Source: a virus. Taken from it: a stretch of DNA of 57,351 bases. Below, piece after piece: positions 36,410-51,529 of this stretch. The position numbers and the translations under genes are program-made. The stretch lies in the IMG/VR virus record IMGVR_UViG_3300008116_000049, positions 1 to 57,351 of that record; one strand, given 5' to 3'. Each line of letters starts with the position of its first letter. Position 1 is the first letter of the stretch. The notes under the pieces were generated by a model. That model saw only the letters and a program-made list of their open reading frames with translations, had not been told where the DNA came from and did not search any database.

Positions 36410-36899
36410 TAAATAATCTCCTGTTAATATCAGATGATAGGAAGGCCTCTAACCAGACAGGGCGGGGCTCTATAAGATAACAGGCCCGCGCTGCGATAAG
36501 AGGATGATAGAAGTAAGGTAAAAACTCTAGCTGAGCTAGTGCCTCTATATGATGAGGCGTAGCTATACCTCTATGATCTAGTATACCCAGGGTAGGGTAG
36601 CGCTCGTGATATATATTTAGGTTATAGTTGTGCAGATACTCAGTAGTATCTAGACAGTACCAGGCAGCGCCAGAGCGGGGCCGCTCCATATCAGATAGGT
36701 AGCCTGTTATAATCGGCGGGCCCTCACTATCCTCACATAGATACTCTATGGCACGTCTATACATACGCCACTCCTGGGCCCAACTCGACTGTAGTGTTAT
36801 AGTAACAGCACTATAGCGGCCATCAGCGTAACGCCCTACATAATAGGGGTATATCATACAATCGCGAGCTGGTATACTCACGTGATAATTAGTCATCAC
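36399..36899 (-). CDS. hypothetical protein downstream of primase
   Basis: 166 residues, Tyr-rich (MIYPYYVGRYADGRYSAVTI), mixed alpha/beta, no membrane segment. The ATG pair overlaps the primase stop by 4 nt (ATGA), so the genes are coupled. Function unknown. Confidence 0.55.
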   Translation of the reverse strand: MMTNYHVSIPARDCMIYPYYVGRYADGRYSAVTITLQSSWAQEWRMYRRAIEYLCEDSEGPPIITGYLSDMERPRSGAAWYCLDTTEYLHNYNLNIYHERYPTLGILDHRGIATPHHIEALAQLEFLPYFYHPLIAARACYLIEPRPVWLEAFLSSDINRRLFNVC

Positions 36900-38089
36900 G
36901 ATCCAAATAGTAGAGAGGCATATTCAAGGGGCCCTAATTGATTATCTACATAAGGAGCCAGTAGCCCTAAGGGGGAATGAGTGGCAGTTAATACCCGCAA
37001 TATATCTACGTGATGACTAATGTCGGGCCCCCATTGAGCTAGTAAATCATCTACGAATAGTATGCGGTTAGCATTAATAGTATCAGCAGCATTAACGCGA
37101 GGCTCTGCTACCAACCACTCATTAATATCCTTATAATCAGCAACCATATACGTCATAAGCTCAGCTAATGGTAAGTTAATCTGCAGCTGAACTAGTTGAG
37201 GTATGATACGCACCCAGCTCTTATATACGCCAGCATGAGTAGGATGATCATCGCTATACTTATCTGAGTCGAATATAAATGTGATATGACGGAAGGGCTT
37301 GAATTTACTGGTGTGACATAATAGATACTCCAGACCCAATAACCCCACTACAGGTAAACCACGACCTACTAGTGATGTGGCATCAGGCGGGCCCTCAACT
37401 ATATATAGCTCGCGAGCTGGGTGCTTACTATACTCCTTAAGACAATGTTCTAGATAGAGATAGCGCTTACTATTAATAGCGGCCCGCGTATCCTTATAAC
37501 GGGGGGCCCTCTCACTACTACCTATATAGCGACCAACCATATGGACTAGATGACCTCGTGTATCTCGTATAGGGAATATAATGCGTTCCCTATAGTAATC
37601 CTCGCCGTCCTCCTTAATCAGACCCTCGCGGGCTAATGCCTCATGATCTATATCGAATTGACGTAGACCACCAGGAGGAGCATACCCTATACCAATACTA
37701 CGAGCTAGATCGAGAGACCAGCCCCGCCGTAGTATATAATCCTGAGCAGCAGGCGTAGTATCAAGATAATAGTGATAGGCCTCTAGCGCGCTCTCTAGTA
37801 CTATACTGCGAGCATCCATAACCTCGCGGGCCTGACGTATACCGGCGCGGGCCTCTAACTGTTGCATAGCCCCAGCATAATCAAGCTTAGTATGCCAACG
37901 CCAGGCATTAACCAGGCCCATACCTGCGTTCAACTCACAACTAGTCCTCCAGCACTTCATATAGTGCGGATATACACTCAGCTTACCGCGGCCCCCACAA
38001 GCAGGACAATCATTAGTACCATGCCGTAGATTTAGTAGCTCTGGTATAGTTAGCCGCTCCATTATCAGTTGTTCATTCTCTCTCGTCAC
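36896..38089 (-). CDS. dnaG: DnaG-type DNA primase
   Basis: 397 residues. The zinc site is Cys28-Ala-Cys31 ... Cys46 ... Cys51 (CPACGGRGKLSV, then MKCWRTSC). The RNA-polymerase core follows (WSLDLARSIGIGYAP, YRERIIFPIRDTRGHLV). The TOPRIM fold shows ELYIVEGPPDATSL with Glu232 and Asp236, and FIFDSDKYSDD with Asp274/Asp276. It makes RNA primers for lagging-strand synthesis. It is shorter than cellular DnaG (about 600) and lacks the helicase-binding domain; no DnaB-type helicase was found. The start is a GTG at 38089 inside the last acidic micro-ORF; an ATG 9 codons later is the alternative. Confidence 0.9.
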   Translation of the reverse strand: MTRENEQLIMERLTIPELLNLRHGTNDCPACGGRGKLSVYPHYMKCWRTSCELNAGMGLVNAWRWHTKLDYAGAMQQLEARAGIRQAREVMDARSIVLESALEAYHYYLDTTPAAQDYILRRGWSLDLARSIGIGYAPPGGLRQFDIDHEALAREGLIKEDGEDYYRERIIFPIRDTRGHLVHMVGRYIGSSERAPRYKDTRAAINSKRYLYLEHCLKEYSKHPARELYIVEGPPDATSLVGRGLPVVGLLGLEYLLCHTSKFKPFRHITFIFDSDKYSDDHPTHAGVYKSWVRIIPQLVQLQINLPLAELMTYMVADYKDINEWLVAEPRVNAADTINANRILFVDDLLAQWGPDISHHVDILRVLTATHSPLGLLAPYVDNQLGPLEYASLLFGS

Positions 38090-38144
38090 CGCTCTCCGTA
38101 TATTGTATGAATGCCCTATAATAACTAAGCTTGAACTTAAACAT
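38073..38144 (-). CDS. array unit A39, 23 codons, leader of primase
   Basis: MFKFKLSYYRAFIQY ends TESGDERE-stop. It keeps the YYR core and an acidic tail, and its tail codons overlap the primase GTG by 17 nt in another frame, the same junction logic as within the array. It may couple primase translation to the array. Confidence 0.4.
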   Translation of the reverse strand: MFKFKLSYYRAFIQYTESGDERE

Positions 38145-38190
38145 TAATACATATTGCCTGTTAATGGCAAGATGCTCGAGATAAGTGATG

Positions 38191-38325
38191 TCACTTACCC
38201 GTAGCCCATTCCATAAGAATATCTCGGTCAACATACCTCACCCACGTCATCCATACTTCCGTTCTTAAGGGATACCTTCGACATGGTTCAGGCCATATAT
38301 TTATATCTCGTCTATCGCGCCACAT
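38191..38325 (-). CDS. array-end micro-ORF A38, 44 residues
   Basis: MWRDRRDINIWPEPCRRY then PLRTEVWMTWVRYVDRD; very rich in Trp and Arg and unlike the acidic array products. AGAGGG lies just upstream and it begins 8 nt after A37 ends. A short inverted repeat follows at about 38157-38171. No family recognised. Confidence 0.4.
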   Translation of the reverse strand: MWRDRRDINIWPEPCRRYPLRTEVWMTWVRYVDRDILMEWATGK

Positions 38326-38333
38326 ATCGCCCT

Positions 38334-38504
38334 CTAATATAAATTGCATACTTCCAGTCTGTAATAAAACAAAGCAAGTTCGAAAGAATTACAATCATAA
38401 AACTTACGCATTAAGTGATATACCTCAATGGGGGGTTCAGGCATAAACATAGAGGCCTTCAGCTTATTGTGCAGAGTCCAATCGTTATGATTAATAGTAT
38501 TCAT
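38334..38504 (-). CDS. array unit A37, 56 residues
   Basis: MNTINHNDWTLHNKLKASMF, then MPEPPIE and FELALFYYRLEVCNLY. Canonical W-T-L-H-N-K-L subfamily, but the acidic tail is missing. The start overlaps A36 by 4 nt. Confidence 0.5.
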   Translation of the reverse strand: MNTINHNDWTLHNKLKASMFMPEPPIEVYHLMRKFYDCNSFELALFYYRLEVCNLY

Positions 38505-38662
38505 TCAAACAAACCTTTATGATTCAATCTAGAGTAAAACGAACCGACATGATTCCTGCTCATTAAATAAGAGCGGGTTACTAAGTAATTTGCAGGCTCA
38601 ATAAGTATAAAGGCCTTAAGCTTATTGTGTAGAGACCAATCATTAATCATAATCATCTTCAT
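38501..38662 (-). CDS. array unit A36, 53 residues (longer start at 38707 possible)
   Basis: Start motif MKMIMINDWSLHNKL, then LMSRNHVGSFYSRLNHK. The W-S-L-H-N-K-L / F-Y-S-R-L subfamily. A tandem duplication of ATGAAGATGATTTC gives several possible starts. No acidic tail; it overlaps A37 by 4 nt. Confidence 0.5.
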   Translation of the reverse strand: MKMIMINDWSLHNKLKAFILIEPANYLVTRSYLMSRNHVGSFYSRLNHKGLFE

Positions 38663-38723
38663 TGAAATCATCTTCATTGAAATAACCGCCCTTATGTATA
38701 ATGTCATCCTTACTCATTCTCAT

Positions 38724-38841
38724 CTAAAATGTGTTAGACAATTCACTTACCAGTCTATAGTAAAACTGGTCGACAGAGGTAATAAGTATAGAGGCCTTCA
38801 GCTTATTGTGCAGAATCCAAATATTACAATTTAGTCTTCAT
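38724..38841 (-). pseudogene. array unit A35, start frame broken
   Basis: The usual start frame reads MKTKL-stop. One base out, the normal body NIWILHNKLKASILIT, SVDQFYYRLVSEL is intact to a TAG at 38724. Loss of one or two bases after ATGAAGA explains it. It shows that units decay by small indels. Confidence 0.55.
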
Positions 38842-39016
38842 CGAAATAATTGTATAGCAGTCTATAGTAAAATTGATCTATAAAAGTAATAAGTATAGAG
38901 GCCTTGAGCTTATTGTCGATAGTCCAGTCGTAAAGCGAACCCAATTTGAAATAATCATTATTACACAGAACCCAATTATTATATAAAATCCAATAAGTAG
39001 AAATTCTCTTCATCAA
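38831..39016 (-). CDS. array unit A34, 61 residues
   Basis: MMKRISTYWILYNNWVL, then LYDWTIDNKLKASILI, DQFYYRLLYNYFDED. It seems to combine two unit N-termini (WILYNN and DWTIDNKL), with a normal core and acidic tail. The spacer 39017-39079 holds out-of-frame remains of another unit start. Confidence 0.5.
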   Translation of the reverse strand: MMKRISTYWILYNNWVLCNNDYFKLGSLYDWTIDNKLKASILITFIDQFYYRLLYNYFDED

Positions 39017-39079
39017 AACAAACCCTTATGATTCAATCTAGAGTAAAACGAACCGACCTTATTAAATAAGACCAGGTTA

Positions 39080-39346
39080 CTAAGTAATTTGCCCCAACGA
39101 AAGACTCAATAAGCATAGAGGCTTTTTATTATTTGTCTCAGTGGAAGGTTCAGTAATAAGTATAGAAGCTTTAAGCTTATTGTGTAGAGTCCAATCACAC
39201 AAACTCTTATGACCCAATCTAGAATAAAACAAACCGACATAGTACCTGCTCATTAAATAAGACCAGATACCATAATTTGCCTTAACGGAAGGCTCAATAA
39301 GCATAAAGGCCTCAAAGGTCCAATCATTAATCATAATCATCTTCAT
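39080..39346 (-). CDS. array unit A33, 88 residues (longer start 39364)
   Basis: MKMIMINDWTFEAFMLIEPS, LMSRYYVGLFYSRL, then a second CDWTLHNKLKASILITEPS. A fused double unit whose second half ends early (LSLGQIT), lacking F-Y-Y-R-L. It overlaps A32 by 20 nt. Confidence 0.5.
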   Translation of the reverse strand: MKMIMINDWTFEAFMLIEPSVKANYGIWSYLMSRYYVGLFYSRLGHKSLCDWTLHNKLKASILITEPSTETNNKKPLCLLSLSLGQIT

Positions 39347-39473
39347 CGAAATAACCGTCCTCATTTAGAATAATAAACCAATAAAACCGGGTTACTAAAT
39401 AATTTGCCCCAACGGAAAACTCAAGCATAGGGGCCTTAATAAGCTTATTGTGCAGAGACCAATCATTAATCAT
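39327..39473 (-). CDS. array unit A32, 48 residues
   Basis: MINDWSLHNKLIKAPML, VGANYLVTRFYWF then NEDGYFDEDDYD. The middle is deleted, so the F-Y-S-R-L motif is lost while both boundary motifs remain. It overlaps A31 by 8 nt. Confidence 0.5.
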   Translation of the reverse strand: MINDWSLHNKLIKAPMLEFSVGANYLVTRFYWFIILNEDGYFDEDDYD

Positions 39474-39648
39474 CTTCATCGAAATAATCATCTTTATATA
39501 GAATGTCGTATATCGCAGCTCTTAGTCTATAGTAAAACCCGCCGGTAGAGATAATAAGTGTACGGGCCTTTAACTTATTGTTGAGAGTCCAGTCGTAAAA
39601 CAAAGCAAGTTTAAAAACTTTACAATTAACCATCTTCATAAAATGCAA
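39466..39648 (-). CDS. array unit A31, 60 residues
   Basis: MKMVNCKVFKLALFYDWTLN, ISTGGFYYRLRAAIYDIL, KDDYFDEDD. Well preserved. It closely resembles A21 in the KLALFYDWT and GGFYYRL segments, suggesting block duplication. Confidence 0.55.
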   Translation of the reverse strand: MHFMKMVNCKVFKLALFYDWTLNNKLKARTLIISTGGFYYRLRAAIYDILYKDDYFDEDD

Positions 39649-39803
39649 CTCTTATGATTCAATCTAGAGTAAAACGAACCGACATAATACCTGCCCATTA
39701 AATAAGACTCGGTTACTAAGTAATTTGCCCCAACGGAAAACTCAATAAGCATAGAGGCCTCAAGCTTATTGTGCAGAGACCAATAATCATTAATCATCTT
39801 CAT
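39636..39803 (-). CDS. array unit A30, 55 residues (longer start 39863)
   Basis: MKMINDYWSLHNKLEASMLI, SVGANYLVTESYLMGRYY then VGSFYSRLNHK. The W-S-L-H-N-K-L / F-Y-S-R-L subfamily; the end lacks the acidic tail. It overlaps A29 by 14 nt. Confidence 0.5.
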   Translation of the reverse strand: MKMINDYWSLHNKLEASMLIEFSVGANYLVTESYLMGRYYVGSFYSRLNHKSCIL

Positions 39804-40068
39804 CGAAATAACCGTCCTCATATTCATCAAATTGGCCATCCTCAAGATAATAACCGCCCTCATCTAGAATATCATCTTTATCTAGGATGTTTTCTAACAT
39901 ATTTATCAATCTACAGTAAAACCGGAAGATAGAGCCGCAACACTTGCTTAGTTTAGGAGTATAAATCTCGAAACCCATCTCTTCATAATAATGAAACAAG
40001 CGCAAGGCATTGAGATAATCATTATTCAAAATCCAAGGTAACAGACAATCGTTAGAAACATTCTTCAT
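39790..40068 (-). CDS. array unit A29, 92 residues (longer start 40098)
   Basis: MKNVSNDCLLPWILNNDYLN, RLFHYYEEMGFEIYTPKL, FRFYCRLINMLENILDKDD then a repeated acidic end with FDEYEDGYFDEDD. The tail motif is expanded about threefold. It represents the YYE-M-G-E-x-Y-T/I-P-E-L subfamily. Confidence 0.55.
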   Translation of the reverse strand: MKNVSNDCLLPWILNNDYLNALRLFHYYEEMGFEIYTPKLSKCCGSIFRFYCRLINMLENILDKDDILDEGGYYLEDGQFDEYEDGYFDEDD

Positions 40069-40114
40069 TGAAATAACCGTCCTTATATAAAATATCATTC
40101 TTATTCATCCTCAT

Positions 40115-40300
40115 CTAGAATGTTATGTATAACACACTTACCAGTCTATAATAAAACTGGTCGACAGAGATAATAAGTATAGAGGTCTTCAACTTATTGT
40201 GCAGAGTCCGAAAGTAATTTGCCCCAACGGAAGGCTCAATAAGCATAGAAGCTCTAAGCTTATTGTTTAGAGTCCACCCTTCACATATAATCATCTTCAC
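40115..40300 (-). CDS. array unit A28, 61 residues
   Basis: MKMIICEGWTLNNKLRASML, VGANYFRTLHNKLKTSILI, DQFYYRLVSVLY. An in-frame fusion of the front of one unit to the body of another (TLNNKL then TLHNKL). Its acidic tail lies in a shifted frame just downstream (about 40050-40110). Confidence 0.5.
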   Translation of the reverse strand: MKMIICEGWTLNNKLRASMLIEPSVGANYFRTLHNKLKTSILIISVDQFYYRLVSVLYITF

Positions 40301-40346
40301 TAGAATAACCGTCCTTATGTATAAAGTAATCCTTATTCATTCTCAT

Positions 40347-40538
40347 CTAGAATGTGTTAGACAGTCTATAGTAAAACAGGTCTACAGAGGTAATAAGTAT
40401 AAAGGCCTTCAGCTTATTGTGCATAATAAAGGCAAATTTGAAAGATTTATAGCTTACTAAATCATTTATCTCAGCGAAAGACTCAGTAGTAAGTATAAGG
40501 TTATTATGTGTAATCCAATATTTAGAGATAGTGTTCAT
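40347..40538 (-). CDS. array unit A27, 63 residues (longer start 40556)
   Basis: MNTISKYWITHNNLIL, ESFAEINDLVSYKSFKF then MHNKLKAFILITSVDLFYYRL. Again two unit fronts joined. The acidic tail is out of frame, forming a 19-codon ORF ending SSEDDYM before A28. Confidence 0.45.
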   Translation of the reverse strand: MNTISKYWITHNNLILTTESFAEINDLVSYKSFKFAFIMHNKLKAFILITSVDLFYYRLSNTF

Positions 40539-40719
40539 TAAAGTAATCATCCTCATTTAGAATATCACTCTCATCTAGAGCGTTATATATAAAAGCCACT
40601 AGTCTATAGTAAAGCCGGTTGATAGAGCACTTGCTTAATTCAGGAATATGACTCTCGAGGCCCACATCCTCATAATAATAAAACAAGTAATTAAGCTTGT
40701 TACAACTAATTGCTCTCAT
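40522..40719 (-). CDS. array unit A26, 65 residues
   Basis: MRAISCNKLNYLFYYYEDVG, LESHIPELSKCSINRLYYRL, ALDESDILNEDDYFNEHYL. The YYYE / I-P-E-L subfamily, without the W-A-P motif. It overlaps A25 by 4 nt. Confidence 0.5.
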   Translation of the reverse strand: MRAISCNKLNYLFYYYEDVGLESHIPELSKCSINRLYYRLVAFIYNALDESDILNEDDYFNEHYL

Positions 40720-40919
40720 TGAAGTAATCGCCCCCCATTCAGAAAGCCATATATCCCAAATTCTCCCATTCTATAATAAAACCAGGCGAGTCCCCCAGGA
40801 CTATAAGCAAAATACAATTTACCTAATAATACCTGTAGGTCAACAGACGGATCAGTAATAGGTATAGGTATATTTAACCTATTACGTGGGGCCCATTTGC
40901 TACAATTAATTATCTTCAT
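40716..40919 (-). CDS. array unit A25, 67 residues (longer start 40937)
   Basis: MKIINCSKWAPRNRLNIPIP, ITDPSVDLQVLLGKLYFAYS, PGGLAWFYYRMGEFGIYGF. Nearly the same as A19 and A4, the D-L-Q-L-L-G-K-L-Y-F subfamily. It ends GGRLLQ instead of an acidic tail. Confidence 0.55.
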   Translation of the reverse strand: MKIINCSKWAPRNRLNIPIPITDPSVDLQVLLGKLYFAYSPGGLAWFYYRMGEFGIYGFLNGGRLLQ

Positions 40920-41115
40920 CGAAATAATCATCCTCATCTAGAATGTTATATAACACATCTCCTAATCTATGATAAAATACGTTGATAGGAACATGTAACT
41001 TGTTCAATTCAGGGATATAGACCTCGATACCCATGTTTTCATAGTAGTAACGATAAGACCATAGATGGTATTTTCTATTACGAGGAGCCCAATTATTACA
41101 ACTAATCATCTTCAT
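40906..41115 (-). CDS. array unit A24, 69 residues
   Basis: MKMISCNNWAPRNRKYHLWS, YRYYYENMGIEVYIPELNKL, FYHRLGDVLYNILDEDDYF then DEDN. All motifs present, making it one of the best preserved units. It overlaps A23 by 14 nt. Confidence 0.6.
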   Translation of the reverse strand: MKMISCNNWAPRNRKYHLWSYRYYYENMGIEVYIPELNKLHVPINVFYHRLGDVLYNILDEDDYFDEDN

Positions 41116-41293
41116 CGAAATAATCGTCCTTATCTAGAGCGCTATATAATCTAGAGTAGAACGAACGGACGTAGAACCTGCTTATTAAATAAAACCTAGG
41201 TACTAAGCCGGTTGTTCTAACGGAAGGCTCAATAAGCATAGAGGCTCTAAGCTTATTGTGTAGAGTCAACTCATCACATATAATAGTCTTCAT
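41102..41293 (-). CDS. array unit A23, 63 residues
   Basis: MKTIICDELTLHNKLRASML, LISRFYVRSFYSRLYSALD then KDDYFDEDD. L-H-N-K-L subfamily with complete ends. It overlaps A22 by 4 nt and A24 by 14 nt. Confidence 0.55.
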   Translation of the reverse strand: MKTIICDELTLHNKLRASMLIEPSVRTTGLVPRFYLISRFYVRSFYSRLYSALDKDDYFDEDD

Positions 41294-41496
41294 AAAAACA
41301 TACTCCTACCCAGTCTGAAGTAAAACAAAGATGTCGAAGCAGACACCCCCACCCAAAAAATACTGTAATGCGTAGCGAGGTTGAAATAATTATGATTATA
41401 ATACTTTCTTACATTTATATCAGTGGAAGGCTCTCTACTAGATATAGATACCCTAAGTTTGTTATTAAGCATAGGCCAATAACTAATCATCTTCAT
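41290..41496 (-). CDS. array unit A22, 68 residues (longer start 41514)
   Basis: MKMISYWPMLNNKLRVSISS, KYYNHNYFNLATHYSIFW then SLFYFRLGRSMFL. A diverged unit with W-P and L-N-N-K-L; acidic tail lost. Confidence 0.5.
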   Translation of the reverse strand: MKMISYWPMLNNKLRVSISSREPSTDINVRKYYNHNYFNLATHYSIFWVGVSASTSLFYFRLGRSMFL

Positions 41497-41638
41497 CGAA
41501 ATAATTATCCTCATATAGAATGTCGTATATCGTAGCTTTTAGTCTATAGTAAAACCCGCCGGTAGATAATAACTTTAGCTTATTCTTGGGAGTCCAGTCG
41601 TAAAACAAAGCAAGTTTGAAAACGTTACAATTAATCAT
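41483..41638 (-). CDS. array unit A21, 51 residues
   Basis: MINCNVFKLALFYDWTPKNK, LLSTGGFYYRLKATIYDIL, EDNYFDEDD. It lacks the PITDP segment but keeps both ends and F-Y-Y-R-L. Close to A31. Confidence 0.5.
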   Translation of the reverse strand: MINCNVFKLALFYDWTPKNKLKLLSTGGFYYRLKATIYDILYEDNYFDEDD

Positions 41639-41795
41639 CTTTATAGAATATATACTTATTTACTATGTCACATACCAGTCTATAATAAAATCGGTCGACA
41701 GCATAAAACCTTAATTCAGGAGTATAGGTATCGATATCCATACGCTCACAATAATAAAAGAAGTAATTAAGCTTGTTATAACTAATTGCCCTCAT
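41631..41795 (-). CDS. array unit A20, 54 residues
   Basis: MRAISYNKLNYFFYYCERMD, YTPELRFYAVDRFYYRLV, tail IFYKDD. The Y-T-P-E-L subfamily. It overlaps A19 by 4 nt and A21 by 8 nt. Confidence 0.5.
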   Translation of the reverse strand: MRAISYNKLNYFFYYCERMDIDTYTPELRFYAVDRFYYRLVCDIVNKYIFYKDD

Positions 41796-41992
41796 TGAGG
41801 TAACCGCCCCCCATAAAGGCCATATAACCCAAATCCTCCCAGCCTATAATAAAACCAGGCGAGTCTCCCAGGACTACAAGCAAAATACAATTTACCTAAT
41901 AATCCTTGTAGGTCAACAGACGGATCAGTAATAGGTATAGGTATATTCAAGTTATTACGTGGGGCCCAATTGTTACAATTAATCATCTTCAT
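41792..41992 (-). CDS. array unit A19, 66 residues (longer start 42010)
   Basis: MKMINCNNWAPRNNLNIPIP, ITDPSVDLQGLLGKLYFACS, PGRLAWFYYRLGGFGLYGL. Nearly the same as A4 and A25; ends GGRLPQ. It overlaps A18 by 14 nt. Confidence 0.6.
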   Translation of the reverse strand: MKMINCNNWAPRNNLNIPIPITDPSVDLQGLLGKLYFACSPGRLAWFYYRLGGFGLYGLYGGRLPQ

Positions 41993-42197
41993 TAAAGTAA
42001 TTGTCCTCATATAGAATGCTATACAACACTACTCCCGCTAGTCTATGGTAAAACCTGGCAGGCCCCCCAGCGTTATAAGTATGAAAGTTATAGTTATAGA
42101 AACTGTAGTATAAACTATCACTGTCTACTAAAATCGACGGGTCAGTGATATATGTATTTAGTTTACTACGTGAAGGCCAACCATTAATCATCTTCAT
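41979..42197 (-). CDS. array unit A18, 72 residues (longer start 42251)
   Basis: MKMINGWPSRSKLNTYITDP, SLYYSFYNYNFHTYNAGG, PARFYHRLAGVVLYSILYED then NYFNEDD. Complete motif order. Its start overlaps the extended end of A17 by 14 nt. Confidence 0.6.
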   Translation of the reverse strand: MKMINGWPSRSKLNTYITDPSILVDSDSLYYSFYNYNFHTYNAGGPARFYHRLAGVVLYSILYEDNYFNEDD

Positions 42198-42378
42198 CGA
42201 AATATAACAATCTATGGTAAAATCAAACAGTCCCTCCTCTAGAATCATCAAGATAGAAGTTATAGAATAACTTATTATCTGCTATCAGAGGGTTAGTAAT
42301 GGGTACAGGTGCATTCCATGCATACGAAACCCATTCAATATCACGCGGAGCCCAACCGTTAGAATTAATTATCTTCAT
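42184..42378 (-). pseudogene. array unit A17 with an in-frame TGA in place of Trp
   Basis: MKIINSNGWAPRDIEWVSYA, PVPITNPLIADNKLFYNFYL, SRGGTV then TGA at 42225-42223, then in the same frame FYHRLLYFDEDD-TAA. Units such as A13 read GGGPAWFYYRLLYFDED, so the TGA replaces the Trp before F-Y. Without readthrough the product is 51 residues (42223-42378). Confidence 0.6.
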
Positions 42379-42557
42379 AGAAATAATGATAGGTTACGGT
42401 AAACGCAAGCGACTCCTCCGGCACTATAAGTGTGAAATTTATAGTATAAATAATTACGGTTTGCTATCAACGGGTTGGTAATAGGTACAGGTATATCCCG
42501 TATATGCGCAGCCCTTCTATTACGAGAGGCCCAATTGTTACAATTAATCATCTTCAT
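42375..42557 (-). CDS. array unit A16, 60 residues (longer start 42575)
   Basis: MKMINCNNWASRNRRAAHIR, IPVPITNPLIANRNYLYYKF, HTYSAGGVACVYRNLSLFL. F-Y-Y-R-L is changed to V-Y-R-N-L and the tail is short. Related to A10. Confidence 0.55.
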   Translation of the reverse strand: MKMINCNNWASRNRRAAHIRDIPVPITNPLIANRNYLYYKFHTYSAGGVACVYRNLSLFL

Positions 42558-42702
42558 CGAAATAATCATCCTCATTCAAAGGTAACACTACTGCTCCTGC
42601 CAGTCTATAATAAAACATAGTGAGCCCCCAATAAACTCTAATAGGCATAGATATATTCAACTTATGACGTGGGACCCATTTGTTACTACCAACTATCTTC
42701 AT
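42544..42702 (-). CDS. array unit A15, 52 residues
   Basis: MKIVGSNKWVPRHKLNISMP, VYWGLTMFYYRLAGAVV, NEDDYFDEDD. Shortened in the middle but with every boundary motif. It overlaps A14 by 17 nt and A16 by 14 nt. Confidence 0.55.
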   Translation of the reverse strand: MKIVGSNKWVPRHKLNISMPIRVYWGLTMFYYRLAGAVVLPLNEDDYFDEDD

Positions 42703-42874
42703 AGAAATCGTCCTTAGCGAACAGTGTCAGTCTATAATAAAATAACATGATAGAAGTTTTGTAGTGGTAACGATAAAAGCTATAGTATAAACTATCACTG
42801 TTTGCTAAAACCGACGGGTCAGCAGCAAGTATATTCAACTCATTACGTAAAGGCCAATTGTTAATAATCTTCAT
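42686..42874 (-). CDS. array unit A14, 62 residues (longer start 42919)
   Basis: MKIINNWPLRNELNILAADP, SVLANSDSLYYSFYRYHY, IMLFYYRLTLFAKDDFYED. Complete. The longer start would only read the previous unit's F-Y-Y-R-L codons out of frame. Confidence 0.55.
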   Translation of the reverse strand: MKIINNWPLRNELNILAADPSVLANSDSLYYSFYRYHYKTSIMLFYYRLTLFAKDDFYEDSW

Positions 42875-43055
42875 CGAAATATAACAATCTATAGTAAAAC
42901 CAAGCAGGCCCTCCACCATGATAAAGATAGAAGTTATAGAATAACTTATTATTATCTGCTACTGGAGGAACAATAATAGGTACAGGTGCATTCCATTCAT
43001 ACGGAGCCCATTTAATAGTACGCGGAGCCCAATCATTACAATCAATCATCTTCAT
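42861..43055 (-). CDS. array unit A13, 64 residues
   Basis: MKMIDCNDWAPRTIKWAPYE, PVPIIVPPVADNNKLFYNFY, GGGPAWFYYRLLYFDEDY. The WAPxxxKWAPY double start links it to A1, A2 and A11. It overlaps A12 by 14 nt. Confidence 0.6.
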   Translation of the reverse strand: MKMIDCNDWAPRTIKWAPYEWNAPVPIIVPPVADNNKLFYNFYLYHGGGPAWFYYRLLYFDEDY

Positions 43056-43332
43056 AGAAATAATCCCCCTCCCCTAGAAAGTCATATAACAAACATGCTA
43101 GTTTATAATAAAACAAGTCGATAGGAACATGTAACTTGTCTAATTCAGGGATATAGGCCCCGAGACCCATGCTTTCATAGTAGTAACGATAGAACCATAG
43201 ATAGTATAGATTATCACCATTTGGTAAAATCGGTGGGTCAGTAATAGGTATCGGTATACTCAACTTATTACGTGCAGTCCAACAATCGTTATTACTATGA
43301 GGCGCCCAATTGTTACAATTAATCATCTTCAT
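43042..43332 (-). CDS. array unit A12, 96 residues, longest unit
   Basis: MKMINCNNWAPHSNNDCWTA, IPIPITDPPILPNGDNLYYL, WFYRYYYESMGLGAYIPELD, FYYKLACLLYDFLGEGDYF then YEDD. A hybrid holding the PITDP loop and the YYYE / I-P-E-L segment found separately elsewhere. Confidence 0.6.
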   Translation of the reverse strand: MKMINCNNWAPHSNNDCWTARNKLSIPIPITDPPILPNGDNLYYLWFYRYYYESMGLGAYIPELDKLHVPIDLFYYKLACLLYDFLGEGDYFYEDD

Positions 43333-43559
43333 AGAAGTAATAATAGGTTGTAGTTATCTTCATCTAGAAAGCTATACAACACTACTCCTACTAGTCTATT
43401 GTAAAATTTGGCGGGCCCTCCATCATGATAAAAATAGAAGTTATAGAATAACTTATTATCTGCTATTGGAGGGACAGCAGTAGGTACATATGCCCCCCAT
43501 CCAGACGGAGCCCATTTAATATTACGCAGAGCCCAATTATTACAATTAATCTTCTTCAT
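43329..43559 (-). CDS. array unit A11, 76 residues
   Basis: MKKINCNNWALRNIKWAPSG, PPIADNKLFYNFYFYHDGG, PAKFYNRLVGVVLYSFLDED. The tail continues NYNLLLLL through a frameshift into the next start, replacing the acidic end. It overlaps A12 by 4 nt. Confidence 0.55.
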   Translation of the reverse strand: MKKINCNNWALRNIKWAPSGWGAYVPTAVPPIADNKLFYNFYFYHDGGPAKFYNRLVGVVLYSFLDEDNYNLLLLL

Positions 43560-43743
43560 AAAAATAATGATAGGTTATATTACGGTAAACGCAAGCGACT
43601 CCTCCGGCACTATAAGTGTGAAAGTTATAGTATAAATAATTATGGTTTACTATTAACGGGTTAGTAATAGGTATGGGTGCGGCCTCTTCATACGGAACCG
43701 GCTTATTACGAGGAGCCCAATCGTTACAATTAATCTTCTTCAT
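43546..43743 (-). CDS. array unit A10, 65 residues
   Basis: MKKINCNDWAPRNKPVPYEE, APIPITNPLIVNHNYLYYNF, TYSAGGVACVYRNITYHYF then YEED. Close to A16. It overlaps both neighbours by 14 nt. Confidence 0.6.
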   Translation of the reverse strand: MKKINCNDWAPRNKPVPYEEAAPIPITNPLIVNHNYLYYNFHTYSAGGVACVYRNITYHYFYEED

Positions 43744-43921
43744 AGAAGTAATATTCTGCCCCTGTCAGTATATAATAAAACATATCAAGCCCCCCAGTAT
43801 CATTATAAACATAAAAACTATCGTATAAATTATCAATGCTCATTAGAGGCGGATTAGTGGTAGGTATGTATGGAGTCCACGCATAACGAGGAGCCCAATT
43901 GTTAGAATTAATCTTCTTCAT
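43730..43921 (-). CDS. array unit A9, 63 residues (longer start 43978)
   Basis: MKKINSNNWAPRYAWTPYIP, NPPLMSIDNLYDSFYVYND, GGLDMFYYILTGAEYYFY then EED. The Arg of F-Y-Y-R-L is Ile here. Confidence 0.6.
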   Translation of the reverse strand: MKKINSNNWAPRYAWTPYIPTTNPPLMSIDNLYDSFYVYNDTGGLDMFYYILTGAEYYFYEED

Positions 43922-44147
43922 CGAAATAAGTGTCCTCATATAGAATGTTGTATAGCACACTGAAATAACCACCCTCATTTAGAATGTTATATAACATATA
44001 TGACAGTCTATGATAAAACCAGACGAGTCTCTCAGGATTATAAGCAAAAAAGCATAATCCCTGTAGGCCAACAGGCGGGTTAGTAATAGGTATAAGTATA
44101 CTCGACTGATTACGTGGGGCCCAATTGTTAGAATTAATCTTCTTCAT
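43908..44147 (-). CDS. array unit A8, 79 residues
   Basis: MKKINSNNWAPRNQSSILIP, ITNPPVGLQGLCFFAYNPER, WFYHRLSYMLYNILNEGGYF, then a second LYNILYEDTYFDEED. The tail segment is duplicated in frame. Confidence 0.6.
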   Translation of the reverse strand: MKKINSNNWAPRNQSSILIPITNPPVGLQGLCFFAYNPERLVWFYHRLSYMLYNILNEGGYFSVLYNILYEDTYFDEED

Positions 44148-44343
44148 CGAAATAATTGTCCTTATATAGAATATATAATACTATTCCCGACAGTCTATAG
44201 TAAAATATAGCAAGTCCTCTAGAATTATAAAGATAGAAGCTATAGTATAAATTATTGATATTTGCTACTGGCGGGGCAGTGATAGGTATAGGTGCAATCC
44301 ATTCACTACACGGGGCCCAGCAATTTGGATTAATTGTTTTCAT
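44134..44343 (-). CDS. array unit A7, 69 residues
   Basis: MKTINPNCWAPCSEWIAPIP, ITAPPVANINNLYYSFYLYN, LAIFYYRLSGIVLYILYKDN then YFDEED. Complete motif order, 14-nt overlaps on both sides. Confidence 0.6.
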   Translation of the reverse strand: MKTINPNCWAPCSEWIAPIPITAPPVANINNLYYSFYLYNSRGLAIFYYRLSGIVLYILYKDNYFDEED

Positions 44344-44512
44344 AGAGATAGTTATCCTCAGCTAAAATATCAATATCCTGTCTGTAGTAAAACGCCTTGA
44401 AATAAAAGAAGTTGATAGAGACATATAACTTGTGTAATTCAAGGGTATAGGCCCCATATATACTTATCTGCCATGTGTATACACAGTCTATAGTAAAATC
44501 GGTCGACAGCAT
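44330..44512 (-). CDS. array unit A6, about 60 residues, start uncertain
   Basis: Body YGAYTLELHKLYVSINFFYF, then FYYRQDIDILAEDNYLYENN. The first 18 codons overlap A5 in another frame and read its F-Y-Y-R-L codons out of frame, so the real start is doubtful; an indel probably separated A5 and A6. Confidence 0.4.
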   Translation of the reverse strand: MLSTDFTIDCVYTWQISIYGAYTLELHKLYVSINFFYFKAFYYRQDIDILAEDNYLYENN

Positions 44513-44597
44513 AAAACCTTAATTCAGGAGTATAGGTATCGAGACCCTCAACAAAATAAAAAAAGTAATTAAGCCTGTTACATCTAATCGCTCTCAT
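44439..44597 (-). CDS. array unit A5, 52 residues
   Basis: MRAIRCNRLNYFFYFVEGLD, TYTPELRFYAVDRFYYRL. Same subfamily as A20. It overlaps A4 by 14 nt. Confidence 0.5.
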   Translation of the reverse strand: MRAIRCNRLNYFFYFVEGLDTYTPELRFYAVDRFYYRLCIHMADKYIWGLYP

Positions 44598-44811
44598 TGA
44601 AGTAATCACCCCCCAAGCTTAAGGTCTCATTCAGAAAGTGATATATCACAAATTCTCCCAGTCTATAATAAAACCAGGCGAGTCTTCCAGGACTATAAGC
44701 AAAATACAATTTGCCTAATAACCCCTGTAGGTCAATAGGCGGGTCAGTAATAGGTATAGGTATATTCAAGTGATTACGTGGGGCCCAGTCATTACAATTA
44801 ATTATCTTCAT
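44584..44811 (-). CDS. array unit A4, 75 residues (longer start 44829)
   Basis: MKIINCNDWAPRNHLNIPIP, ITDPPIDLQGLLGKLYFAYS, PGRLAWFYYRLGEFVIYHF, tail GGDYFNESD. The clearest D-L-Q-G-L-L-G-K-L-Y-F unit; A19 and A25 are near copies. Confidence 0.6.
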   Translation of the reverse strand: MKIINCNDWAPRNHLNIPIPITDPPIDLQGLLGKLYFAYSPGRLAWFYYRLGEFVIYHFLNETLSLGGDYFNESD

Positions 44812-44850
44812 CGAAATAATCATCCTCACCTAAAATATCAATATACCAGT

Positions 44851-45078
44851 CTATGTTAAAGAGCGCTGATAAAAACGCAGGTTATAATAAAACAAGTCGA
44901 TAGAAAAATATAACTTGTCTAATTCAAGAGTATAGGCCCCAATTATAATTTCATAGAACCATGTATAATATAAATTATCGCCGTTTGCTAGAATCGCTGG
45001 GTCAGTAATGGATTTAGATATAGACATATGTGGACCCCAATTACTACTAAGCCAACCATTACAATTAATAATCTTCAT
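44851..45078 (-). CDS. array unit A3, 75 residues (longer start 45096)
   Basis: MKIINCNGWLSSNWGPHMSI, SKSITDPAILANGDNLYYTW, YTLELDKLYFSIDLFYYNL. The end (RFYQRSLT) lost the acidic tail, and a 39-nt gap precedes A4. Confidence 0.55.
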   Translation of the reverse strand: MKIINCNGWLSSNWGPHMSISKSITDPAILANGDNLYYTWFYEIIIGAYTLELDKLYFSIDLFYYNLRFYQRSLT

Positions 45079-45271
45079 AGAGATAATCATCCTCATCTAA
45101 TGATAGTTTACGGTAAAACCAAGCAAGCCCTTGATTATTATAAGTATGAAACTTATAGTATAAATTATGACCACTTGTTATCAGAGGATCAGTAATAGGT
45201 ACAAGTTCACCCCAATATGGAGCCCATCTAGTATTACGAGGAGCCCAATCATTAGAATTAATAATCTTCAT
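45065..45271 (-). CDS. array unit A2, 68 residues (longer start 45289)
   Basis: MKIINSNDWAPRNTRWAPYW, ELVPITDPLITSGHNLYYKF, HTYNNQGLAWFYRKLSLDED then DYLYEDY. Complete, with 14-nt overlaps on both sides. Confidence 0.6.
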   Translation of the reverse strand: MKIINSNDWAPRNTRWAPYWGELVPITDPLITSGHNLYYKFHTYNNQGLAWFYRKLSLDEDDYLYEDY

Positions 45272-45434
45272 CGAAATAGTCCCCCTCATCTAGAATGTTA
45301 TATAATACATTTCCTGCCAGTCTATAGTAAAACTTGGCGGGCCCCCCAGCATTAACGTAGTAGTAGACCCATTCGCGATACGGCGCCCATTTCTCATTAT
45401 GGGGCGCCCAACAGTTTGTATTAATCTCTTTCAT
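45258..45434 (-). CDS. array unit A1, 58 residues, first of the array
   Basis: MKEINTNCWAPHNEKWAPYR, YYVNAGGPAKFYYRLAGNVL, YNILDEGDYFDEDY. It lacks the PITDP loop. Its ATG lies in the last codons of the 138-residue head gene (EAFDERD-stop), overlapping by 14 nt exactly as between units. Confidence 0.65.
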   Translation of the reverse strand: MKEINTNCWAPHNEKWAPYREWVYYYVNAGGPAKFYYRLAGNVLYNILDEGDYFDEDY

Positions 45435-45837
45435 CAAATGCCTCCTTTTTTACTGGACGTAAAACCGACTTTTTCTTATAAGCAACCACCATTAAATACA
45501 CCTCTAACAAAGCCTCAATAAGAGACTCCTGCCGAGAACCAAAACAGCGTGAAGTCTTGGAAGGATCAGGATTCACGCTGACCTGCACAGTATAACTATT
45601 AGGTAATCGTTGGATGACCCAACCATAGCCAAAGCTATCTAGACGCATTTGGAAAAAATAGATCAACTTAGCAAGCGACCCCCGATCTAACAAAAAGGGA
45701 TCAGGATCAGAGGTAGAGATAGAAATCCAATCACCCCAAGATAGTTGGATAAAAAAGGTATTCCGAAAAGTACCCACTCCATACCCACAAATGTGAGGCT
45801 CAGACTTGACCCAATCGTGCAAAAATTCAGTAAGCAT
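45421..45837 (-). CDS. 138-residue protein heading the micro-ORF array
   Basis: GGAGGG lies 5 nt before the ATG. The sequence (HICGYGVGTFRNTFFIQLSW, GDWISISTSDPDPFLLD, AKLIYFFQMRLDSFGYGW, RLPNSYTVQVSVNPD) is a two-layer alpha/beta domain, host-like in codon use. Its middle, W-I-S-I-S-T-S-D-P...LAKLIYFFQMRLDSFGYG, parallels the array pattern I-P-I-P-I-T-D-P...GKLYFAY...FYYRLGEFGIYG, so array units may derive from this kind of gene. It ends KKEAFDERD, with the first array unit overlapping by 14 nt. Two hairpins precede it. Function unknown. Confidence 0.65.
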   Translation of the reverse strand: MLTEFLHDWVKSEPHICGYGVGTFRNTFFIQLSWGDWISISTSDPDPFLLDRGSLAKLIYFFQMRLDSFGYGWVIQRLPNSYTVQVSVNPDPSKTSRCFGSRQESLIEALLEVYLMVVAYKKKSVLRPVKKEAFDERD

Positions 45838-45875
45838 TTATACCCTCCGTATAGATGACAATATGTTGTACCACA

Positions 45876-45908
45876 TACTGTTATTTCAGTTGTCCTGAAA
45901 TAACAGTA
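45876..45908. promoter_or_regulatory. 14-bp perfect inverted repeat upstream of the array operon
   Basis: TACTGTTATTTCAG (45876-45889) and its exact complement CTGAAATAACAGTA (45895-45908) flank a 5-nt loop. Neither side has a T-tract, so it is more likely an operator, attenuator hairpin or mini-element end than a terminator. It sits about 40-70 nt before the 138-residue gene. Confidence 0.6.
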
Positions 45909-45916
45909 TAACTAAT

Positions 45917-45939
45917 TATTCTTATCATCAATAAGAATA
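45917..45939. promoter_or_regulatory. second inverted repeat, 9 bp
   Basis: TATTCTTAT (45917-45925), loop CATCA, ATAAGAATA (45931-45939). Directly beside the 14-bp repeat, so the two may form one control region for the array transcript. Confidence 0.5.
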
Positions 45940-45991
45940 GACTAACTAGCAAAAGAATACTCGTTAAGATACTTTATGTCTAATTAATTAA

Positions 45992-49583: not shown

Positions 49584-50045
49584 TCATGGTTTTTGATTTT
49601 CTTGATTCTTTTGAGATTCTTGCAAATTGAGAAGTTGAAGCACAGCTTCATCTGCGTCTTTACGCGCCATACTACAAGTCCATAGTCTTTGTTCATTGCG
49701 CTTAATAATGATAATTTCTGTATCAGAAACTGAACAAACTAAATCATTTTTCTGTTTTATTAGTTGATTAAGAGATTCTATTCGTTGCTTTTGTTCTAAT
49801 TCAGAAACGGGTTGAGGTTTTTCTCCGTACTCTTGTGTAGAGAAAACAATAGCTAACATAAAACTTTTTGTTTCTTTAAACTGAAACCGAATAATCTGCC
49901 AACTAAATTCACCATCAGGTTCTAATTCTCGATTCCAAATATTTAGAAAGGTCTGTAAATAACCTTCTAATCCTTTTTGAGTTTGACGGTTTTTATTAAT
50001 ATCACTGACTAAAAATCCCGTATCTAACAGAATATTTGACTTCAT
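49584..50045 (-). CDS. hypothetical protein with a PIN-like first strand, downstream of an antitoxin-like gene
   Basis: 153 residues. It begins KSNILLDTGFLVSDINKN, like the first strand of VapC-type PIN toxins, whose usual start is ILLDTGFLVAL with the catalytic Asp. The rest (FLNIWNRELEPDGEFSWQ, FSTQEYGEKPQPVSELE, LWTCSMARKDADEAVLQLL) has none of the further PIN acidic residues in place. It could be an in-frame fusion of a toxin start to another cyanobacterial protein, or an unrelated family with a chance match. The 4-nt overlap with the antitoxin-like gene supports a toxin-antitoxin origin. Confidence 0.5.
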   Translation of the reverse strand: MKSNILLDTGFLVSDINKNRQTQKGLEGYLQTFLNIWNRELEPDGEFSWQIIRFQFKETKSFMLAIVFSTQEYGEKPQPVSELEQKQRIESLNQLIKQKNDLVCSVSDTEIIIIKRNEQRLWTCSMARKDADEAVLQLLNLQESQKNQENQKP

Positions 50046-50287
50046 TTGCTGCCAATACCTCGAAGATAGTCTTTATTAGTGGCTAAGTCCCCCGGTCCGC
50101 CATCGACACAACCAATATATTCTTTGGCTGCTTCATAGAATGAAATCGTTTTTTCTTCAGTGAGTTCTTTCTTCTCTGCCTTAAATTGCAAGAATTTAAT
50201 AAAGTCGATTACTTCTTGCTGTTGTTGGGGAGTGAGGGCGTTTAGTTTTTCTAAGATGGTTTGTGAGTGAGTGGTTGCTGATATCAT
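50042..50287 (-). CDS. antitoxin-like protein (DUF2281/VapB-type)
   Basis: 81 residues. LEKLNALTPQQQQEVIDFIK, LQFKAEKK, then ISFYEAAKEYIGCVDGGPGD and LATNKDYLRGIG. This is the standard form of cyanobacterial antitoxins paired with PIN toxins: the helical LPPEQQQEVLDF start dimerises and the tail blocks the toxin. AAGAG precedes the ATG. Overlap with the next gene is 4 nt. Host-like composition suggests acquisition from a cyanobacterium. Confidence 0.75.
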   Translation of the reverse strand: MISATTHSQTILEKLNALTPQQQQEVIDFIKFLQFKAEKKELTEEKTISFYEAAKEYIGCVDGGPGDLATNKDYLRGIGSK

Positions 50288-51265: not shown

Positions 51266-51529
51266 ATGGCTAAGAAGAAGAGCTTCACTTTTAAGAAAGA
51301 GCACAAGGATCCGGACGGAGGGCTAACAGCTAAGGGCCGCGCTGATTACAATCGCGCTACTGGCTCTAACCTGAAGCCCCCTGCCCCTAATCCCAAGAAC
51401 AAGACGGATGCGGCCCGCCGTAAGAGCTTCTGTGCGCGTAGCGCAGGCCAGGCGGATATGCACGATATAGACTGTCGCAAGACACCTAACAAGCGCTTAT
51501 GCAAGGCCCGCAAGGCATGGGCATGCTAG
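51266..51529 (+). CDS. small basic phage protein, DUF6321-like
   Basis: 87 residues: FKKEHKDPDGGLTAKGRADY, NRATGSNLKPPAPNPKNKTD, ARRKSFCARSAGQADMHD, RKAWAC. This matches a phage family I recall as DUF6321 (DPxGGLSxxGRxxYNRATGxNLKPP, RRKSFCAR, terminal WxC). Very basic, probably DNA binding or virion associated. It is the only plus-strand protein gene in the right half, lying between two leftward transcripts, so it needs its own promoter. Confidence 0.78.
   Translation: MAKKKSFTFKKEHKDPDGGLTAKGRADYNRATGSNLKPPAPNPKNKTDAARRKSFCARSAGQADMHDIDCRKTPNKRLCKARKAWAC

Follow-up and report, generated by a model that had tools for sequence, protein, structure and literature searches.

A tandem array of diverged small genes with a selected reading frame in Microcystis phages and its possible role as a set of host-directed binders

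Results

The window analyzed here, which is the whole 57,351-nt stretch of IMG/VR record IMGVR_UViG_3300008116_000049, holds a tandem array of small, diverged genes, flanked by a gene for a 138-amino acid (aa) protein and by the gene for a DNA primase, both on the minus strand. Because its first 25 kb show ~95% nucleotide identity to Ma-LMM01, MaMV-DC, MaMV-DH01 and related phages of the bloom-forming cyanobacterium Microcystis, the window is, judged by sequence, a fragment of a Ma-LMM01-like (Fukuivirus-like) Microcystis phage, and the array locus corresponds to gp137-gp157 of Ma-LMM01.

The sense (minus) strand of the array stretch contains 38 open reading frames (ORFs) of at least 48 aa, covering 96% of its length, whereas 500 first-order Markov sequences average 6.1 ORFs (maximum 16) with 15% cover and the plus strand has 10 ORFs with 24% cover. 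With ORFs below 40 aa excluded (below 45 aa in the substitution, indel and pN/pS analyses), an all-against-all comparison placed 36 window ORFs in a single family, which numbers 315 ORFs across 12 non-redundant arrays; in 25 of these ORFs no standard start motif was located. A first-pass annotation of this DNA had counted about 37 overlapping paralogous ORFs. The array proved real, but it comprises 36 family ORFs and spans 38334-45437, since the two 3'-terminal ORFs (38073-38349) do not count as members, nor does a small ORF at 39106-39240. The first of the two 3'-end ORFs (38191-38349) lies outside the family, while the second (38073-38234), with no unit motif recognizable by eye, was not compared. 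In 32 stretches of the window the match to the family profile begins no later than column 52 and reaches at least column 88 (the W motif lies at column 47, and column 88 falls inside F-Y-Y-R-L), with 9 further matches being fragments.

An assembly artefact, considered in the first pass, is ruled out by two other metagenome contigs that match the whole 7.7-kb region at 100% (rounded), together with family arrays at the same place in cultured isolates. All nine full arrays have stretches of more than 100 nt without a sense ORF of at least 40 aa, the longest being 292 nt among units and 859 nt between the last unit and the primase in contig 8107. In the window, gaps without ORFs of 40 aa and units run together at 38334-39110 (minus strand) suggest that the 3' part of the array contains decaying copies.

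Homologous arrays of 20-38 units, a finding that the first pass said would support its reading, are present at the same genomic place in eight other distinct phages. Family ORFs number 36 in the window, 38 in contig 44858, 37 in 8107, 33 in 49629, 29 in 11268 and 26 in 44621. The isolate arrays (Ma-LMM01 gp137-gp157, MaMV-DC, MaMV-DH01 and MaMV-CH01) share with the window the PHROG 4393 family, the place, the strand and the overlapping layout, yet those of Ma-LMM01, MaMV-DC and MaMV-DH01 are smaller, with 21, 20 and 27 family ORFs. The comparison covered nine complete, mutually distinct arrays. The 12-array set leaves out duplicates (contigs 31758 and 31857, which match the window, and MaMV-CH01, near-identical to MaMV-DH01) and partial contigs (42901, 42319, 28429, 42559, 5044 and 42455); MaMV-CH02, DL01 and DL02 matched but stayed outside the comparison.

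PHROG 4393, a family with neither name nor known function, was matched by all six window units scanned (E values of 7e-27 to 2e-6). In eight related records the PHROG matches, among those listed, all fall in the array region, and 14 control genomes gave no PHROG 4393 match. A single unit used as query against 50,697 phage records matched nine of them, representing seven phages, all of Microcystis and including MaMV-DH01; this one-unit query found the family in no phage record beyond Fukuivirus-like phages and in no plasmid. A single degenerate pattern of low sensitivity, run on genome contigs, returned only five chance-like Paenibacillus matches of 13-18 aa. The units tested against Pfam, NCBIfam, PADLOC and the Protein Data Bank (PDB) gave nothing usable, and in a profile search of solved structures the sole match up to E 10 was a cellulase (E 0.55), with no anti-CRISPR (Acr) protein; AcrID1, whose structure is present in the PDB, showed no sequence relation to the units in that search. 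Public records annotate the array genes one by one (gp137-gp157 in Ma-LMM01), as hypothetical proteins only. The first pass knew of no described phage system with this architecture; we did not find the array as such in titles or abstract openings in a partial literature search, but the genes themselves were already annotated singly and clustered as PHROG 4393. The available part of the MaMV-DH01 paper's main text does not contain duplicat-, paralog- or tandem, and that of PMC13340012 has nothing on the array.

Neighboring family ORFs overlap by exactly 14 nt at 180 of the 303 junctions in the 12 arrays. Any overlap is found at 239 junctions (4 nt at 18), a gap of up to 30 nt at 24 and a longer gap at 40. 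At a 14-nt overlap one frame reads, for example, F-D-E-D-D-stop and the next M-K-M-I, so that the acidic tail of one product and the start of the following gene are identical bases read in two frames. The products are small, about 64 aa, and the earlier description of them as acidic applies to the tail (median charge -3) but not to the body up to profile column 99, which is basic (median pI 8.7, net charge +2). Both low-confidence AlphaFold2 models, of unit ORFs 7 and 12, have two helices in the C-terminal half, and substitution rates in columns 69-79 peak at a periodicity of 100 degrees (P 0.004, one of five segments tried; P 0.06 in the overlapping segment 67-79), so the C-terminal half is probably helical. 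Columns 43-53 show strand-like periodicity (P 0.006) and columns 54-65 none. A Foldseek search with the first low-confidence model only gave no match and is uninformative.

Selection was assessed outside ORF overlaps, whose codons were excluded from the substitution, pN/pS, stop and per-column tests; high-scoring segment pairs had to fall within the set identity and length limits. In comparisons between arrays at 85-99.7% identity, aligned partners carry 55 stops in the unit frame against 474 expected from the observed substitution rates (ratio 0.12), whereas the ratios are 0.95 and 1.36 in the other sense frames and 0.85, 1.04 and 0.97 in the antisense frames. Observed and expected stops per identity class and among paralogs were 9/54, 54/457, 159/1029, 2/24 and 16/97. 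As stops are depleted 8-fold in the unit frame and not in the others, the reading frame is, on this pattern, selected like a translated one. This bears out the first-pass view that a frame was kept despite the divergence and, with one 36-ORF family in that frame, its proposal of a multigene cassette for many variant small proteins.

The amino acids present a different picture from the strong constraint foreseen there, with a ratio of non-synonymous to synonymous rates (dN/dS) well below 1. Third codon positions carry no excess of substitutions, and first positions change fastest (0.056, 0.037 and 0.041 per site in the closest class). The ratio of non-synonymous to synonymous differences (pN/pS) ranges from 0.61 to 0.70 between arrays and is 0.57 between isolates and 0.81 among paralogs, against 0.65-0.71 in neutral simulations with stops forbidden; relative to neutral, the five classes stand at 0.95, 0.89, 0.99, 1.17 and 1.08. 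By the same method, 26 flanking ORFs gave pN/pS of 0.21 (neutral 0.64). Codon models on fixed trees yielded omega values with a median of 0.80 (weighted mean 0.89), exceeding 1 in 9 of 34 clusters (values were obtained for 34 of 35 clusters, which contain 245 of the 315 ORFs, smaller clusters being excluded), and 0.11-0.46 in seven neighboring genes, taken near the array from the 26 flanking ORFs. Near-neutral pN/pS and omega rule out strong purifying selection as the main force. A dN/dS near 1, named in the first pass as evidence against a coding array, is thus nearly what was found, yet the sequence does not evolve neutrally. Of 408 indels at 85-93% identity, 207 are multiples of three, as are 582 of 1287 at 75-85%; both shares exceed one third.

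Constraint is concentrated at a few positions. Non-synonymous change relative to neutral is 0.09 at Y87, 0.16 at W47, 0.26 at L90, 0.28 at Y96 and 0.30 at L71, with synonymous change at 1.36 (Y87), 1.17 (L90), 2.06 (Y96) and 0.50 (L71) times neutral; W has a single codon, so no synonymous rate can be read at W47. Positions 44, 46, 54, 67, 70, 77, 85, 91, 92 and 93, on the other hand, change 1.36-1.76 times faster than neutral, their synonymous ratios being 0.12-0.73 except for 1.18 at position 67. To avoid circularity, fast columns, about a dozen, were picked on six arrays and evaluated on the remaining six, where the ratio of non-synonymous to synonymous change (N/S) was 2.38 times neutral at 75-99.7% identity and 2.31 times neutral (P 7e-10) with codons near gaps excluded. 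Across 57 columns, the rates in the two halves of the array set are correlated (Spearman 0.57).

Where arrays share units, at 85% identity or more over the unit length, the order is the same with few exceptions, but such units are few: the window shares 0 to 8 of its 36 units with each partner array, including one with Ma-LMM01, two with MaMV-DC and one with MaMV-DH01. The isolates share more mutually, for instance 14 of 21 units between Ma-LMM01 and MaMV-DH01. None of 267 units has a paralog at least 85% identical in its own array, and the closest paralog within an array has a median identity of 42-54%. Because shared units are collinear yet few, and none recurs within an array at that identity, the array, as far as these comparisons go, behaves as a mosaic in which blocks are exchanged in place, with no recent duplicates.

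Discussion

We propose that the array is a translated repertoire of diversifying, host-directed small binders, a reading to which we give a probability of roughly 45%. The 138-aa gene and the 36 units after it would form one gene run on a single message, and ribosomes that finish one ORF may begin the next within the 14-nt or 4-nt stop/start overlap. The products would be small proteins with a basic body and a short acidic tail, and with a probably helical C-terminal half built around W, L, Y and F-Y-Y-R-L. Selection maintains the frame and these anchors, whereas divergence elsewhere runs close to the neutral rate, with some positions probably evolving faster. Units are gained, lost and exchanged as arrays of different phages diverge, and each phage thus holds 20-38 different versions. 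Each version could bind a variable host protein, most plausibly one of the Microcystis defense set, in the middle phase of infection. The target is something we infer, and the mix of conserved and fast positions is compatible with the idea of a library of binders put forward in the first pass.

Several observations weigh against this proposal. The excess at fast columns shrinks in closer pairs, to 1.54 times neutral (P 0.03) from 88% identity upward and to 1.24 (P 0.51) from 92% upward, so relaxed constraint may account for part of it; moreover, the tests treat as independent related comparisons that share ancestry. Since the held-out excess fades to non-significance in the closest pairs, diversifying selection on the units is graded as likely, not proven. 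Slow columns in the held-out arrays show N/S of 0.84 of neutral, no clear deficit, with 238 non-synonymous changes against 350 expected and synonymous change lower too. At 85-93% identity pN/pS is 0.62, below the 0.67-0.73 of 40 neutral simulations; this is the sole class outside the simulated range, and weak purifying selection therefore remains on average. Among indels in the closest pairs (93-99.5%), multiples of three are not favored (14 of 42), and the trees behind the omega values ignore recombination. On the structural side, the AlphaFold2 models are poor (mean predicted local distance difference test score, pLDDT, 57 for unit ORF 7 and 54 for unit ORF 12), and helical periodicity holds for columns 69-79 only, columns 84-99 having none (P 0.59).

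Timing of expression also counts against the proposal, as middle expression suits an anti-defense role worse than early expression would. The available part of the Ma-LMM01 transcription study lists gp054-gp063 as early genes and gp037-gp041 as another cluster, together with 162 middle genes and five late ones, including gp086, gp087 and gp091 (PMC5780444). The array neighbors gp134 and gp160 are middle genes there (PMC5780444). Nearly all array genes of Ma-LMM01 are, by elimination, middle-phase, and the label of an early region given in the first pass accordingly fails for this phage. The same source, again in its available part, reports for M. aeruginosa the most defense genes of the prokaryotes then examined, with 396 of 492 belonging to toxin-antitoxin systems, and a type I-D CRISPR-Cas system with spacers matching this phage (PMC5780444). 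Because the host reportedly holds a record number of putative defense systems, defense proteins are the leading putative targets.

A more specific form of the proposal, doubtful at present, is a germ-line library of miniature binders, in which one scaffold would present 20-38 faces per phage from a coupled message, as an inhibitor panel against defense reshuffled by recombination. Variable positions on a constant scaffold are also what diversity-generating retroelements yield. Such an element is ruled out by the absence of an RVT_1 (PF00078) reverse transcriptase from all five records searched (the window and four isolate genomes), the domain being found in 3 of 14 controls, and by substitutions that are not adenine-specific, as A-G and C-T differences are about equal and all types are present. 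The AcrID1 clusters of rudiviruses (Sulfolobus viruses) likewise hold many diverged small paralogs set close together, but the parallel is one of layout only. In the available part of PMC11065993, four viruses account for 26 of 35 AcrID1 homologs, and the genes are small and mostly single, many with a shared early promoter motif, unlike the one overlapping and, by elimination, middle-phase run described here.

Alternatively, the units could be a functional but loosely constrained family, for example RNA- or membrane-associated or internal to the virion, kept in many copies for dosage and left to drift. We regard this as unlikely, though it draws on the average omega of 0.8-0.9, on the basic, aromatic-rich bodies and on the lack of significant positive selection among the closest pairs. 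Selection for dosage would nevertheless predict near-identical copies, contrary to the 0 of 267 units with a close paralog in their own array, and non-synonymous change is above neutral at the chosen columns of held-out arrays.

An array of antitoxin-like proteins or strict anti-CRISPRs, each unit neutralizing one host toxin or Cas complex, seems improbable to us. It would suit a host for which a type I-D CRISPR-Cas system and 396 toxin-antitoxin genes are reported (PMC5780444), and archaeal viruses do keep many AcrID1 paralogs close together (PMC11065993); both statements come from the available parts of these sources. Against it stand the lack of a usable match of the tested units in Pfam, NCBIfam, PADLOC or solved structures, and transcription that is, by elimination, middle rather than early.

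Still less probable is a translational relay, in which the proteins themselves do little and translation is kept so that transcription and translation are not broken before the primase. A relay alone would lead to stop avoidance with dN/dS near 1, in keeping with the stop depletion and near-neutral amino-acid change, and the junctions overlap, down to the primase start, which in the window overlaps the last small ORF. Against it, anchor residues are strongly conserved while synonymous sites vary freely at Y87, L90 and Y96. Continuous translation also seems unneeded, because each of the nine full arrays contains ORF-free stretches of more than 100 nt, and because the array is separated from the primase by a transposase pair in Ma-LMM01 and by other genes elsewhere.

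That the array is made of non-coding or selfish DNA repeats with leftover ORFs is hardly credible, even with the missing third-position excess, the fast first position and the many indels that are not multiples of three (201 of 408 at 85-93% identity, 28 of 42 in the closest pairs), since amino acids are conserved over varying codons and the depletion of stops in one frame only rules it out.

If the units are host-directed binders, the locus could explain part of the strain specificity of this bloom-controlling phage group, and it would offer a ready-made natural set of inhibitors of cyanobacterial defense or regulation. Fast change with kept readability is what an arms race with the host would be expected to produce in a kit of weapons. 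Whatever its function, this is a tandem phage array in which the frame and a few anchors are under selection, the rest is approximately neutral, with some positions probably faster, and no two copies are alike, and it can be tested in the cultured phages Ma-LMM01, MaMV-DC and MaMV-DH01.

Coordinates and flanking features

Table 1. Features of the array locus in the window, units in reading order from 45437 to 38334. Unit rows rest on the ORF scan and the all-against-all family comparison, partial forms on profile matches.
Feature	Position	Strand	Remark
Leader with two hairpins, 5' of the 138-aa gene	45838..45960	-	folding
138-aa conserved protein gene, first of the run	45421..45837	-	GGAGGG upstream; overlaps unit 1; pN/pS 0.32
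Tandem array, 36 family ORFs, PHROG 4393-like	38334..45437	-	
Unit ORF 1	45258..45437	-	
Unit ORF 2	45065..45289	-	
Unit ORF 3	44851..45096	-	
Unit ORF 4	44584..44829	-	
Unit ORF 5, short form	44439..44609	-	profile match, C-terminal part
Unit ORF 6	44330..44512	-	profile match, C-terminal part
Unit ORF 7, canonical	44134..44343	-	low-confidence predicted structure
Unit ORF 8	43908..44147	-	
Unit ORF 9	43730..43978	-	
Unit ORF 10	43546..43743	-	
Unit ORF 11	43329..43559	-	
Unit ORF 12, long form, P-E-L insertion	43042..43332	-	low-confidence predicted structure
Unit ORF 13	42861..43055	-	
Unit ORF 14	42686..42919	-	
Unit ORF 15	42544..42702	-	
Unit ORF 16	42375..42575	-	
Unit ORF 17, cut short	42223..42378	-	profile match, N-terminal part
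Unit ORF 18	41979..42251	-	
Unit ORF 19	41792..42010	-	
Unit ORF 20, short form	41631..41795	-	profile match, C-terminal part
Unit ORF 21	41483..41638	-	
Unit ORF 22	41290..41514	-	
Unit ORF 23, W-T-L-H-N-like type	41102..41293	-	
Unit ORF 24	40906..41115	-	
Unit ORF 25	40716..40937	-	
Unit ORF 26, short form	40522..40719	-	profile match, C-terminal part
Unit ORF 27	40347..40556	-	
Unit ORF 28	40115..40300	-	
Unit ORF 29	39790..40098	-	
Unit ORF 30	39636..39863	-	
Unit ORF 31	39466..39648	-	
Unit ORF 32	39327..39491	-	
Unit ORF 33, two units fused by eye	39080..39364	-	
Unit ORF 34	38831..39016	-	
Unit ORF 35	38501..38707	-	
Unit ORF 36, final family member	38334..38504	-	
Two overlapping 3'-end ORFs	38073..38349	-	last one overlaps primase start
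DNA primase, 3' boundary of the array	36896..38089	-	Pfam DNAG_N; pN/pS 0.08

From the start of the 138-aa gene to the start of the primase the arrays measure 4.6 to 9.4 kb, insertions counted, and the adjoining primase and helicase are 93-100% identical between phages in full-length matches. The impression gained by eye that the units derive from the 138-aa gene was unsupported, as a profile comparison detected no homology between the 138-aa protein and the units. The 138-aa gene is kept in Ma-LMM01 (L001:16407-16799) without an annotated coding sequence there. Its leader in the window contains two strong hairpins (z -4.2), the second of 16 pairs, which are present in 10 of 13 compared sequences and missing in contigs 8107, 28429 and 49629.

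The 3' end of the array, beside the primase, is an insertion spot (L027:8091-9279; L001:9713-11471; L010:11613-12914; L025:8695-9138). It is occupied by a two-gene transposase pair in Ma-LMM01. MaMV-DH01 and contig 8107 carry orphan genes there, and contig 49629 carries an AAA_15 ATPase with best scores to the PADLOC candidate defense models PDC-M38A and AbiLi.

Farther from the array, a small window ORF at 50042-50287 (minus strand) resembles DUF2281, which we take to be an antitoxin-like family (E 2e-5; 25.4 bits, slightly below the Pfam cut-off of 26.5), and sits in an AT-rich block that is only partly covered in isolate phages. At 51266-51529, a lone plus-strand ORF among minus-strand genes matches DUF6321 well over the cut-off.

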